36,245 nt of DNA from a virus. A model generated the notes under the pieces. The model was not told the origin of the DNA. It searched no databases and saw only the letters and a list, made by a program, of their open reading frames with translations. Positions 3,010-8,323 of this stretch are shown piece by piece; the first letter of the stretch is position 1, and each line of letters begins with the position of its first letter. The position numbers and the translations under genes are program-made. The stretch spans positions 1-36,245 of the IMG/VR virus record IMGVR_UViG_3300037502_001522. One strand, 5' to 3'.

Positions 3010-3025
3010 AACAAAACAAATAACT

Positions 3026-3109
3026 ATGGCAACAATACTCCTACTAATCTTCACAACAGCAACGCTCACTTGGGCAGCAACATCACAACGTAATAACGCA
3101 AAGAAATGA
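3026..3109 (+). CDS. 27-aa membrane peptide
   Basis: Reads MATILLLIFTTATLTW and then a short polar tail ending NAKK. A single hydrophobic helix fills most of it. Its TGA (3107-3109) overlaps the next ATG (3106), which supports translation. The function is unknown; tiny membrane peptides of this type occur in phage early and lysis regions. Confidence 0.5.
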   Translation: MATILLLIFTTATLTWAATSQRNNAKK

Positions 3110-3279
3110 CCAGACCACACTCCGACAGAAACCAAGGGCGCAAATTAGAGCCAAAATCCGTTCGCATACGCATACCCGAAATGTACCGTGACCACATCCG
3201 AGCAGAAATAAAACGGCTTAAAGCGACACCCGAATACAAGGCGGTTATGAAGCGGATAAATGATGAGGATGGGGATTGA
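3106..3279 (+). CDS. Small basic hypothetical protein (57 aa)
   Basis: Starts MTRPHSDRNQGRKLEPKSVR and is rich in Arg and Lys, with the predicted helix MYRDHIRAEIKRLKATPEYK. ATGA overlap with the peptide upstream argues for a phage backbone gene. Its TGA stop (3277-3279) lies within the left R box of the first attC-like site (TGAAC), so the cassette array begins directly at its 3' end. It could also be the gene of a first cassette, but I found no matching cassette start upstream. A nucleic-acid-binding role is possible from charge alone. Confidence 0.6.
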   Translation: MTRPHSDRNQGRKLEPKSVRIRIPEMYRDHIRAEIKRLKATPEYKAVMKRINDEDGD

Positions 3280-3353
3280 ACGTTTTGCAGCTATACGCAG
3301 TTGTGTGTCGGCTTTGTGCGGTGGGAAAATTGCGTATAGCTGCTGTTATAAGC
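3278..3353 (+). repeat. attC-like site 1
   Basis: Left arm GAAC-GTTTT-GCAGCTATACGCA (to 3299); right arm TGCGTATAGCTGC (3331-3343)-T-GTTATAAGC (3345-3353). The 13-bp L arms pair perfectly, AAC pairs with GTT, and the spacers are 5 and 1 nt, as in asymmetric attC sites. The loop is 31 nt. Unlike the other sites, its left box (TTGAAC) has no complementary cassette start upstream, so this may be the junction with phage DNA. Confidence 0.75.
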
Positions 3354-3393
3354 TGGGCGGTTTAATTAGTAAAAACTTAAATAGAACGATAAA

Positions 3394-3561
3394 ATGAAAA
3401 TAGAAACTCGAATAAAAACAGGAAAATTAAAAGGTTGGACAATTCGTAAATCAAAGCACGGTTGGTATGACCTATATTCTAATGGTGGAATAAGCCAAAC
3501 ACAAGGCAAACACACGCTTGAAGAAATTAAAGAAATTGTCAAATCGAAGCAGTCAAGTTAG
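3394..3561 (+). CDS. Cassette 2 orphan protein (55 aa)
   Basis: MKIETRIKTGKLKGWTIRKS onward, with aromatic residues (HGWYDLYSN) and a C-terminal helix EEIKEIVKSK; the overall look is a small beta-hairpin-helix protein. No family is recognised. It begins 41 bp after the cassette boundary and stops 4 bp before attC site 2, the classic cassette spacing. There is no recognisable promoter inside the cassette, so expression probably depends on readthrough. Confidence 0.65.
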   Translation: MKIETRIKTGKLKGWTIRKSKHGWYDLYSNGGISQTQGKHTLEEIKEIVKSKQSS

Positions 3562-3565
3562 CCTT

Positions 3566-3647
3566 GCTTATAACGTGATGCAGATTTGCGAATTGGCTGT
3601 ATACACAAAGTACTTGTCAGCCATTTTGCAAATGTGCTGTTATAAGC
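3566..3647 (+). repeat. attC-like site 2
   Basis: GCTTATAAC (3566-3574), spacer GTGAT, GCA-G-ATTTGC (3580-3589) and TGGCTG (3594-3599) pair with CAGCCA (3618-3623), GCAAAT-G-TGC (3628-3637), spacer T and GTTATAAGC (3639-3647). The outer nine bases are perfectly complementary. G83/G34-type mismatches inside the arm correspond to the extrahelical bases that orient strand choice in known attC sites. The loop is 18 nt. Confidence 0.85.
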
Positions 3648-3655
3648 TGCCAAAA

Positions 3656-4132
3656 CTATTTTGTCTTATTATGTTTAACTGTATTTTTTGTCAATGAGTC
3701 TATTTTAAATTCAAGTTCACTAATTTTTATGTCTTTTATGTTTAATTGGTTAGATACATATATTCCACAAATTCCTATTGCTAAAATACTAATGGCATTA
3801 AGTATAGCAGCTGTTGTCTTAGCAATTGTCCAAATTGTTTGTCTTGTTTGGATTTTGGTTTCATACATAAAACCACCACGTTCTAAAAAAAGTCGTCCAT
3901 GAATAGTAATATAATACGTCTTAGTATTAGTATTGTCGCCATTTACTTTTGTAAGATAATTGAAGTTCGTCAATTTGTCGTCACACAATTTTTCAAGAAT
4001 CATGTACAATTCTTTATTAGTAAATGTGTCGTTAAATTTACGTTTAATTTGAAGATGTGTTTCAGGAAATTGCTCGTCATTGTCGAGATACATCAAAACT
4101 TTGTCAAGTTGTTTTGCAGCAGATTTATTCAT
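3656..4132 (-). CDS. Cassette 3: winged-helix-like plus membrane-anchor protein
   Basis: 158 aa, and the only convincing minus-strand gene in the window. Residues 1-88 look like a winged-helix fold (ETHLQIKRKFNDTFTNKELYMIL, then TKTYYITIHGRLFLERGGF). Residues about 103-125 form one transmembrane helix, and 133-150 a short coiled coil. Similar wHTH-membrane orphans are common in Bacteroidetes genomes; their role is unknown to me. The ATG complement (4130-4132) lies 22 bp inside attC site 3 and the stop lies 16 bp from the cassette start, so it fills its cassette in reverse. Reverse cassettes carrying their own promoter are often toxin-antitoxin or defence genes, but no such family is recognisable. 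Confidence 0.7.
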   Translation of the reverse strand: MNKSAAKQLDKVLMYLDNDEQFPETHLQIKRKFNDTFTNKELYMILEKLCDDKLTNFNYLTKVNGDNTNTKTYYITIHGRLFLERGGFMYETKIQTRQTIWTIAKTTAAILNAISILAIGICGIYVSNQLNIKDIKISELEFKIDSLTKNTVKHNKTK

Positions 4133-4153
4133 GATTCGTGTGTCAAATTGGTT

Positions 4154-4289
4154 GCTTATAACGTTTTGCAGCTACCAGAAGGGCGGGATTTTAACCACAA
4201 AATAAACTTAGAAAGATGAATGATAATTTAACCACAAATGTTTCTAACGAAGCAGAAAGCCCCGCCTTTTTGGTAGGTGCTGTTAGCGG
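4154..4289 (+). repeat. attC-like site 3
   Basis: Left: GCTTATAAC (4154-4162), GTTTT, GCAG-CTACCAGAAGGGCGGG (to 4187). Right: CCCGCC (4261-4266), TTTTTGGTAG and GTGCT-GTTAGCGG (4282-4289). The 16-nt arms pair throughout apart from a G-U pair and single offsets. The 73-nt loop holds ATG 4216 and the sequence AATTTAACCAC (4225-4235), also found in sites 4 and 5. Confidence 0.8.
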
Positions 4290-4455
4290 ACAGTTGCCGA
4301 CTAACGAAGAAATAGATTTAATAATTGAGCAGGATTTGCCATTTAGCGAAGAATATCAGAAATGCTCTGAAAAGGAAAAGGCACTTATGTTAGCGGCAAC
4401 GAAAGCTGGAGCAAAGTGGTTTCGTTATTCGCTGATTGAAGGCAATTTCCGCTAA
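4216..4455 (+). CDS. Cassette 4 orphan protein starting inside attC site 3
   Basis: 79 aa. ATG 4216 is in the loop of attC site 3; residues 1-22 (MNDNLTTNVSNEAESPAFLV and on) are coded by the attC of the upstream cassette, and only from Val-Ser-Gly-Gln onward by cassette 4 itself. Cassette 4 has no ATG near its 5' end (the first internal Met is at about residue 59), so the upstream attC seems to supply the start. The cassette part, QLPTNEEIDLIIEQ then EKEKALMLAATKAGAKWFRY, is acidic-helical with no family recognised. TAA 4453-4455 lies in the R'' box of attC site 4. Confidence 0.6.
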   Translation: MNDNLTTNVSNEAESPAFLVGAVSGQLPTNEEIDLIIEQDLPFSEEYQKCSEKEKALMLAATKAGAKWFRYSLIEGNFR

Positions 4456-4583
4456 CGTGTTTTCGCTTTGCGTTCGTGCGGTTTTCGGAGCACGGAACTG
4501 TCAACCTGCACTGATGCCAAATAGAAGCACTACACTTGAATTAACCACGTCTGCCCGCATGACGCAAAACGAATGTTGGCAGC
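4451..4583 (+). repeat. attC-like site 4
   Basis: GCTAAC (4451-4456), then TTCGCTTTGCGTTCGTGCGG (4462-4481), pairs with CCGCAT-GACGCAAAACGAA (4555-4573) and GTTGGCAGC (4575-4583). The outer boxes differ (GCTAAC versus GTTGGC) because the right box belongs to the next cassette; the boxes match once each cassette is considered as a circle. The 73-nt loop contains ATG 4514 and GAATTAACCACG. Confidence 0.75.
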
Positions 4584-4615
4584 TGGCCTTTAATAAGTCA
4601 CAAATTAAAATTTAA
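4514..4615 (+). CDS. Short reading frame in attC loop 4 (possible leader peptide)
   Basis: 33 codons from ATG 4514 in the attC loop through the right arm into the leader of cassette 5, ending at TAA 4613-4615, six bases before the cassette 5 start at 4622. It includes LELTTSARMTQNECWQLAF. The Leu-Thr-Thr triplet is in the same frame as in the starts at 4216 and 4957. Translation could bring ribosomes to the start of cassette 5. Translation is inferred only from the shared ATG and LTT arrangement. Confidence 0.35.
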   Translation: MPNRSTTLELTTSARMTQNECWQLAFNKSQIKI

Positions 4616-4621
4616 ATACAA

Positions 4622-4885
4622 ATGGAAGAACAGGAATTAGTCCTTGAACAAGGCAAAATCTATTACCTTGACTATGGTAATAACACTCAAATTGTTGGTC
4701 GATATAAAGAAAGCGATACGTGTAACCACTTCTTTTATGACTTACTCCATTACTGGAATGGTTACGAAAGTTTTAGACACACAAATCAACATTGTGTAAA
4801 AAGTGGTATTGAAAACATACGCAGGGCTTCAAAGTCTGAAATTCACAATTTAGTCAAACATGAAATTGACAACGATTGTATTTAG
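4622..4885 (+). CDS. Cassette 5 orphan protein (87 aa)
   Basis: An acidic, aromatic-rich small protein: MEEQELVLEQGKIYYLDYGN then IVGRYKESDTCNHFFYDLLHYW. The first half looks like a small SH3-like beta barrel (a sequence such as GKIYYLDYGNNTQIVGRYK), although I cannot assign a family. It starts 46 bp after the cassette boundary and ends 4 bp before attC site 5. It has its own ATG, unlike cassette 4. Confidence 0.65.
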   Translation: MEEQELVLEQGKIYYLDYGNNTQIVGRYKESDTCNHFFYDLLHYWNGYESFRHTNQHCVKSGIENIRRASKSEIHNLVKHEIDNDCI

Positions 4886-4889
4886 GCTT

Positions 4890-5026
4890 GCTGCCAACGG
4901 ATTGGGGCTTTGCGAAGGGCAAGGCATAGAATTACAAATGTTCAAAATTAGTACAAATGATAGATAGAATTACAAATGCTCAATTAACCACCGAAGCCTT
5001 GCCTTTTGCAAAACCCTTGTTAGCAG
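4890..5026 (+). repeat. attC-like site 5
   Basis: GCTGCCAAC (4890-4898), then GGGGCTTTGCGAAGGGCAAGGC (4904-4925), pairs with GCCTTGCCTTTTGCAAAACCC (4996-5016) and GTTAGCAG (5019-5026). The 70-nt loop has ATG 4957 and CAATTAACCACC (4981-4992). The left box is complementary to the start of cassette 5 (TTGGCAGC, 4576-4583). Confidence 0.8.
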
Positions 5027-5859
5027 ATGTGCCTTTGGTTGTATCTTTTTCTGGTGGTAGAACATCAGCATTTATGGCAAGAGCATTACAATTACGATAT
5101 GAAGGTAAAAGAGATTTGATTTTCATATTTGCGAATACAGGCAAAGAAAGAATTGAAACACTTGATTTTATAAATGAGTGTGAAACTCGTTGGAATTTAA
5201 ATTGCGTTTGGCTGGAATATGATTTAGTTGAAGATAAAAGCACATTCAAAATTGTAGATTATAATTCAGCTTCAAGAAATGGCGAACCATTTGAAAAAAT
5301 GATTTCTAAATATGGACTGCCAAATAAAGCATTTCCACATTGCACAAGGGAACTGAAACGCCAAACCATAACAAGATATTTAAGAACCATTGGTTTGAAT
5401 AATGGCAAATATGAAACTGCAATAGGTATAAGAATTGACGAAGCACATCGTATTAATTGGCAAAATGCAAAACGAGATAGATTTATTTACCCACTTGCAA
5501 CGGATTTCAGAGCCACAAAAGACTTTATCAGAACTTGGTGGGATAGGCAGGATTTTGATTTGCAGTTAAAAGATTACGAGGGCAATTGCGATATGTGCTG
5601 GAAAAAATCAGAACGCAAATTGCTAACAATGATTTTAGAAAAACCACACTTAATTGAGTGGTGGAATGAAATGGAAATTAAATATGGTCAAGGCGAATTT
5701 TCATTTTTCAGAAAAAATAAAACAGCCATTGACCTAATAGAATTATCAAAACAAAAATTCAGAAAAGCAAATGACGAACACGAAGCAAATAAACAGCAAG
5801 AAAAACTATTCGATTATGATTTGGACATTGAATACGATTGTTTCTGCAAGTCATCATAG
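4957..5859 (+). CDS. Cassette 6: PAPS-reductase/ATP-pyrophosphatase family protein
   Basis: 300 aa as drawn. The P-loop-like PP motif SGGRTSA is at residues 32-38; IFANTGKE follows at 57-64; FPHCTRELK has C129, and GNCDMCWKK has C211 and C214. These are landmarks of the phage-type phosphoadenosine phosphosulfate reductase/N-type ATP-pyrophosphatase family; the substrate is unknown and could be sulfur transfer or nucleotide/DNA modification. ATG 4957 is inside the attC 5 loop, so residues 1-22 come from the upstream attC. The core domain normally starts a few residues before SGG, so GTG 5029 is an alternative start. The gene fills cassette 6 and is followed by a half attC. Confidence 0.8.
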   Translation: MIDRITNAQLTTEALPFAKPLLADVPLVVSFSGGRTSAFMARALQLRYEGKRDLIFIFANTGKERIETLDFINECETRWNLNCVWLEYDLVEDKSTFKIVDYNSASRNGEPFEKMISKYGLPNKAFPHCTRELKRQTITRYLRTIGLNNGKYETAIGIRIDEAHRINWQNAKRDRFIYPLATDFRATKDFIRTWWDRQDFDLQLKDYEGNCDMCWKKSERKLLTMILEKPHLIEWWNEMEIKYGQGEFSFFRKNKTAIDLIELSKQKFRKANDEHEANKQQEKLFDYDLDIEYDCFCKSS

Positions 5860-5876
5860 GGTGTCGTTTGGCATTT

Positions 5877-5910
5877 CTGCTAACTCCCCGCTACCCGCTA
5901 AATTATATCG
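5877..5910 (+). repeat. Half attC site at the array's right end
   Basis: CTGCTAAC (5877-5884) is complementary to the start of cassette 6 (GTTAGCAG, 5019-5026), so it is the R'' box of that cassette's attC. It continues TCCCCGCTACCCGC, but I find no matching right arm (expected GCGGGTAGCG) before the phage gene at 5941. The site seems truncated where phage DNA resumes. Confidence 0.6.
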
Positions 5911-7633: not shown

Positions 7634-8323
7634 ATGGAAAACAAGACCCAAACAATGCAGGTTGCAGCGGTGCAACAACTACCAATTAACGAGTTAATGA
7701 ATATGGCCAAGGCATTTGCCGAAAGCGGAATGTTTCCCGATACCAAGTCGGCAGCGCAAGCCATCGTTAAAATTCAAGCAGGCCAAGAAATCGGAATACC
7801 TCCATTTGCTGCTATGACAGGCATTCACATCATCCAAGGCAAGCCAACAATAGGAGCAGGCCTTATTGCATCACGTGTCAAAGGTAGCGGCAAGTATGAT
7901 TACAGAGTGATTGAAGCTACTGAAAAGATTTGCACCATTGACTTCTACCAAGGTGTTGAGAAAATCGGCACATCAACATTCACAATCGAAGATGCCAAAA
8001 AAGCACTTACCAAAAACATCGACAAGTTTCCAAAAAATATGCTATTTGCACGCGCAATAAGCAACGGTGTGAAGTGGTATTGCCCCGATGTATTTAGCGG
8101 GCCTGTGTACGTACCAGAAGAAATGACTGCCATTACCGTGGATGCCGAAGCAGTTGAGGTAAGCAACATCGATGAGTTAACTGCAATGATTAACGCTTGC
8201 CAAAGCATTGAAGAGTTAACAAATGCTTGGAAGTCGCTATCAAAGGCAGAAAAGGCAAACGATACGCTCATCAATGCTGCCAAAGAAATGAAATCAAAAC
8301 TAACCCCTAAAACTGCTGAATAA
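7634..8323 (+). CDS. RecT-like single-strand annealing protein (putative)
   Basis: 229 aa. Residues about 20-80 contain MAKAFAESGMFPDTKSAAQA, IVKIQAGQEIGIPPFAAMTG and IHIIQGKPTIGAGLIASRVK; further on FTIEDAKKALTKN...FPKNMLFARAIS and YVPEEM. This is the conserved layout of a phage family usually annotated as RecT-like recombinase. The C-terminal 60 residues are helical. Its position between an SSB-like protein and Gp157 supports recombination, but the fold assignment rests on remembered family patterns. ATG 7634 is in the AAACCTATG context; the stop overlaps the next ATG (TAATG). Confidence 0.6.
   Translation: MENKTQTMQVAAVQQLPINELMNMAKAFAESGMFPDTKSAAQAIVKIQAGQEIGIPPFAAMTGIHIIQGKPTIGAGLIASRVKGSGKYDYRVIEATEKICTIDFYQGVEKIGTSTFTIEDAKKALTKNIDKFPKNMLFARAISNGVKWYCPDVFSGPVYVPEEMTAITVDAEAVEVSNIDELTAMINACQSIEELTNAWKSLSKAEKANDTLINAAKEMKSKLTPKTAE

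Follow-up and report, generated by a model that had tools for sequence, protein, structure and literature searches.

The locus described here raises the question of whether a phage genome can hold an integron-type cassette array and, if so, how its cassettes move when the phage carries no integrase. The window analysed is a single virus record of 36,245 bases (IMGVR_UViG_3300037502_001522) and codes for phage proteins including a terminase, portal, tape-measure, primase/helicase and a RecT-like protein (7634–8320). A reading made from the letters alone had proposed that five palindromes with attC anatomy separate cassette genes over 3278–5884, with neither intI nor attI present. Follow-up analysis indicated that the stretch is very probably an integron-type cassette array in a Bacteroidota phage without a recombinase of its own, with an unusual gene orientation and a probable attI-like end, both of which that reading had missed.

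Hairpin sites and cassette units of the window

A strict scan for the pattern AAC, 5 nt, 3 bp, one free position, stem, 1 nt and GTT revealed five sites on the + strand of the window (3279–5021), and the same scan found none on the − strand. When 100 first-order Markov shuffles of the window were scanned in the same way, 0.36 sites per strand were expected by chance with a maximum of 2; shuffle scores never exceeded 13.8, while four of the five real sites scored about 14 or more. All five were predicted to fold as hairpins, and the + strand fold was the more stable in four of them. The palindromes are therefore real, and the proposed anatomy could also be confirmed. Each site consists of AAC, a 5-nt spacer, 3 bp, one often mismatched position, a long stem, a loop, 1 nt and GTT. 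The position following the 3 bp was mismatched in some sites (S2, S3) and paired in others, and loop length differed widely from site to site. The stems covary, with 95% of positions paired and a covariation score of 0.806 against 0.184 in shuffles. The window produced no match to an Rfam family and nothing from ARAGORN. A home-made covariance model, R1, matched S1 and S2 at E values below 1e-11, both sites being part of its training set; since R1 at default filters misses the window sites with long loops, sites were counted with the scripted scan.

The hairpins split the stretch into five units (A–E), the last of which ends at 5884. To the left of the array lies a phage backbone gene (57 aa, 3106–3279, + strand), the stop of which overlaps the left border; the same gene and flank were present in three related phages, L007, L044 and L051. 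Unit A is opened by S1 (3279–3347) and holds a 55-aa gene (3394–3561, +; phrog_22927) with a homologue in Cellulophaga phage phi4:1. S2 (3572–3641) opens unit B, whose 158-aa gene (3656–4132, −) belongs to no family. The 79-aa gene of unit C (4216–4455, +) starts within the loop of S3 (4160–4284), and unit D, opened by S4 (4454–4577), contains an 87-aa gene of no family (4622–4885, +). The start codon of the gene in unit E likewise lies in the loop of its site, S5 (4896–5021). This gene (4957–5859, +; phrog_424) encodes a 300-aa PAPS-reductase-like protein, which also showed a weak match (2.3e-11) to SspD of a DNA-phosphorothioation defence system. Unit E is closed by a terminal half-site, CTGCTAAC (GCTAAC; 5876–5884, +), with no hairpin after it.

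As had been proposed, the gene stops of the array fall at the next palindrome, more exactly at the next AAC. The division of the stretch into five units stood, but its end at 5884 is only a half-site and the unit is not a gene followed by a hairpin. The left border of the array is a full hairpin and the right border is AAC only. Because genes C and E start in the loops of S3 and S5, the unit is a hairpin, a gene and an AAC, with the break on the AAC side of the hairpin. In all five units, the 12 bases starting at the GTT after the hairpin pair at 10 of 12 positions with the closing 12 bases of the unit (ending in AAC), but their pairing with the 12 bases that precede this hairpin reaches only 5–9 of 12. 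This match of outer boxes within a unit is the trace expected from a circular cassette.

The S3 hairpin has a 97.7% identical counterpart in phages L086 and L092. The S1 hairpin was found at 97% identity in an unrelated phage, L048 (4935–5010), where it heads a different gene. Simple cassette movement does not explain this sharing; judging by the L048 copy, hairpins and genes can apparently be recombined with each other as well.

Movement of units and the right end of the array

L007 and L044, found through their helicase, share the left flank (beginning GGGGATTGA) and the right flank (ending CCCGCTACCCGCTAA) with the window and hold other cassettes between them. L051 is 98.6% identical to the window over 3013–4456 and contains units A–C, with unit C as the last cassette before the flank. 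It passes from CCGCTAAC straight to the right flank, so that exactly units D and E (4457–5884, +) are missing. A comparison with relatives lacking the array had been suggested at the outset; it provided the loss of D and E in L051 and different or shorter arrays at the same locus, but a completely empty phage site was not present among the fetched relatives. Comparison of cultured Flavobacterium phages (Lillamyvirus and Muminvirus) further revealed that sister phages about 99.9% identical beside the break differ by whole units, each cut at AAC. These differences amounted to about 439 bp between snork and sniff, about 1181 bp between hemulen and stinky, and about 412 bp, representing one new cassette, between mumin and filifjonk. 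Only a few bases were shared at the break points of these insertions and deletions. Whole-unit mobility, with entry at the attI-like end, could thus be observed in natural comparisons of both the sister phages and L051.

In filifjonk, the cassette was added exactly at the constant right end, between AAC and TACAATATTACATG, a place without a hairpin. Since a cassette entered at this hairpin-less end of the array, the right end is considered attI-like, and on the sequences compared it probably behaves as an attI-like insertion point. The claim that no attI is present is therefore probably wrong. In the window the attI-like sequence occupies 5882–5905 and reads TAGCGGGTAGCGGGGA followed by GTT on the − strand. 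A similar sequence stands at the same place beside different cassettes in L007, L044 and L051, while other phages have AAC followed by TAC[CT]CGCTA in common at their right ends. On the − strand, the junction is TA-GTT in relatives and GA-GTT in the window.

The absence of an integrase, in comparison, was borne out: neither IntI nor any PF00589 (tyrosine) recombinase could be detected in the 36 kb of the window. The locus has five AAC/GTT hairpin sites separating cassettes, where at least two define a cluster of attC sites lacking an integron-integrase (CALIN), and no integrase in the array. It is not a complete integron with intI, attI and attC together, as the window has no recombinase although an attI-like end is present.

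Recombinases and gene orientation in phage and chromosomal arrays

One 18-base site arm occurred in 15 genome contigs, mostly of Bacteroidota, and in 25 viral contigs. An ungapped CTTATAACGTTTTGCAGC search gave matches in genome contigs, while the gapped hairpin pattern gave none in them. Pedobacter glucosidilyticus is one of six genomes (L112–L117) in which an attI-like A-GTT junction comes after a tyrosine recombinase, the genes that follow point away from the recombinase, and sites of the type seen in the phage array lie further along. The covariance model matched in 28 of 149 Bacteroidia genomes, and four more regions (L134, L139, L140 and L143) of the 20 fetched had a recombinase near the array. 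Together with the movement of units in sister phages, this adjacency of the chromosomal site type to recombinases upholds the reading of the window as a cassette array without an integrase. A large chromosomal array, with about 25 such sites over more than 25 kb, was noted in one Bacteroidia genome (L132–L133; G170:C1). A Chryseobacterium plasmid (NZ_CP041688; L154) carries the same recombinase type, followed by genes and one site in canonical orientation.

The chromosomal recombinases are XerA/IntI-like and scored 203–224 bits against NF040815, the model of site-specific tyrosine recombinase/integron integrase (XerA-like), whose cut-off is 220. Against TIGR02249, recombinases by related arrays scored 188–217 bits and did not reach the cut-off of 265. 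The IntI-specific additional domain between the catalytic motifs is absent (about 43 residues fewer than in IntI4, 2a3v), and many chromosomal recombinases carry a long extra N-terminal part. In the recombinase tree, host XerC/D-like proteins formed a supported group, while the deeper branches and IntI1 had no supported position.

Several phages carry a recombinase of their own. In L093/L084, L047/L049 and L050, a recombinase of the same broad type (264–277 aa) directly adjoins the attI end of an array with inverted genes, and these proteins scored 164–198 bits against NF040815. Chaperonin-like and clamp-loader-like proteins are also encoded in L093, as judged from sequence alone, and these two would fit a large tailed phage.

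Relative to the gene strand, chromosomal sites are the mirror image of phage sites. A chromosomal site reads AAC, 1 nt, stem, 5 nt and GTT on the gene strand and the phage site is the reverse, so that phage genes are antisense to their sites. This was counted over units with a clear longest ORF, units with identical 60 bases after the hairpin being counted once. In phages, 31 of the 32 clear units were antisense, and 11 of these 31 genes start inside the hairpin. The only sense unit is that of gene B of the window, its one cassette gene in the chromosomal orientation; the other four are inverted. Chromosomes gave 4 antisense and 49 sense units (1 and 13 in the first set, plus 3 and 36). Fisher's test gave a p value of about 1e-17, or 1.9e-9 with the first set of chromosomal loci only; these values are only indicative, since some contigs are related. 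Two antisense units were present on a contig of 9.4 kb (L129; G051:C12) that was assigned to a bacterial genome bin and may be phage DNA. As phage genes run opposite to chromosomal ones relative to the sites, the result suggests that phages keep their own cassette pool. The typical rule that a cassette gene has the same direction as its attC, although not strictly required, does not hold in the window, and the locus is thus not a plain attC array. The integron reading consequently stood as to the array and its mobility, but it had overlooked the antisense genes.

Competing explanations, proposed mechanism and relation to known integrons

Cassette exchange could be due to homologous recombination between similar hairpins, helped by a RecT-like annealing protein and without any site-specific recombinase. 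The window does code for such a protein, some hairpins are common to several phages, and the S1 hairpin heads different genes. Nevertheless, the few bases shared at break points and the conserved right flank, which faces many unrelated cassettes, speak against such exchange, and it is unlikely for mumin and filifjonk because the cassette joined a right end without a hairpin; overall this explanation is considered improbable. A little less likely still is that the phage serves as a passive vehicle for canonical cassettes from a host chromosomal integron. The common site family and the chromosomal orientation of unit B agree with it, but the inversion of nearly all phage cassettes shows that they were not sampled at random from chromosomal arrays.

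That the hairpins serve simply as terminators or regulatory RNA elements between early genes of the phage, with no movement at all, is very unlikely. They do lie between short genes, several overlap start codons, and a role as RNA leader is possible in principle, though without an Rfam family match. However, they stand before and reach into genes rather than after them, the outer boxes agree inside each unit, phages more than 99.9% identical have gained or lost complete units at AAC, and the same site type occurs in arrays behind chromosomal recombinases. Spread of the units by a hairpin-dependent HUH element (IS200/IS605-like) would explain strand-specific hairpins beside genes; it can hardly be credited, as a tyrosine recombinase repeatedly adjoins the arrays, the AAC/GTT boxes are paired and the units form tandem arrays.

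For the integron-type array, the following mechanism is proposed, in which the recombining enzyme, the choice of strand and the cause of the inversion are inferred. On the + strand, a cassette would consist of hairpin site, gene and closing AAC. A XerA/IntI-like tyrosine recombinase, provided by the host cell or by another phage infecting it, would act on folded single-stranded sites and join cassettes at the AAC/GTT box, and new cassettes would enter at the attI-like right end. The + strand, with its better fold at most sites, would be the recombining strand. Read on the − strand, the locus would have the normal integron layout, with attI followed by cassettes that each end in attC. Within this layout the genes would be inverted and could be expressed by phage transcription towards attI; inverted cassettes would be the expressible ones and hence be kept, and in several of them the site loop would supply the start codon. 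Taken together, the data moderately favour an integron economy run by Bacteroidota phages themselves, with a phage attI, XerA/IntI-like recombinases that some phage lineages encode themselves, and an antisense cassette class often starting in the attC hairpin, in which the site may double as a 5' leader and expression may come from a phage transcript towards attI. Against the reading as an integron-type array stands that the recombinases lack the insertion defining IntI and fall below the TIGR02249 cut-off.

Integrase-less attC clusters in phages are already known. Qi et al. (2023; PMC9892861) reported CALINs in phages including Polaribacter phage P12002L, a site of which was recombined by IntI1 in E. 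coli. Like the present array, these clusters contain attC-like sites with cassettes, lie in virulent phages, among them a Bacteroidota phage, and have no integrase within them. P12002L has sites resembling those of the window, but equivalence is uncertain because they scored poorly against the covariance model made here. The main text of the report describes the typical gene/site orientation or 'divergent directions', and differs from the present results in describing no systematic inversion, loop start codons, phage attI or turnover of units between sister phages. Compared with class 1 and chromosomal integrons, which comprise IntI, attI and attC, the phage arrays share the attI-like end, tandem cassettes, AAC/GTT hairpin sites and insertion at the attI end. 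They differ in genes antisense to attC, very unequal spacers (5 nt and 1 nt) and a recombinase without the IntI-specific insertion; several of the recombinases lie below the NF040815 cut-off. Integrons have been reported from Bacteroidota (PMC8618304). In the literature outside subscription papers, nothing on inverted cassettes or Bacteroidota integrons was closer than Qi et al. (2023), and no earlier link of NF040815 recombinases to phage cassettes was found. The inverted cassette class, the phage attI and the phage-borne recombinases therefore appear to be new.

In integrons, the strand selectivity of attC recombination is regarded as what sets the orientation of a cassette, allowing its gene to be expressed from the promoter at attI (PMC11023631). 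The phages described here break this rule systematically yet keep moving cassettes, and the rule can thus be tested with natural counter-examples. The arrays may also provide a mechanism by which phages of Bacteroidota rapidly replace DNA methyltransferases and small accessory genes; on Flavobacterium LMO6, a difference in methyltransferase has been connected with differences in plating (PMC7077304). Furthermore, some phage 'integrases' regarded as evidence that a phage is temperate (PMC8776804) may be cassette recombinases.

In the cultured Polaribacter/Cellulophaga phages Leef_1 (L149), Freya_10 (L150) and Ingeline_1 (L152), a run of small genes precedes an integrase that is similar to the cassette recombinases and has been interpreted in publications as a mark of lysogeny. 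Putative hairpins beside the integrases of Leef_1 and Freya_10 could be seen by eye only and were not called by the strict scan. The integrase of Danklef_1 (L151) is annotated as a short fragment.
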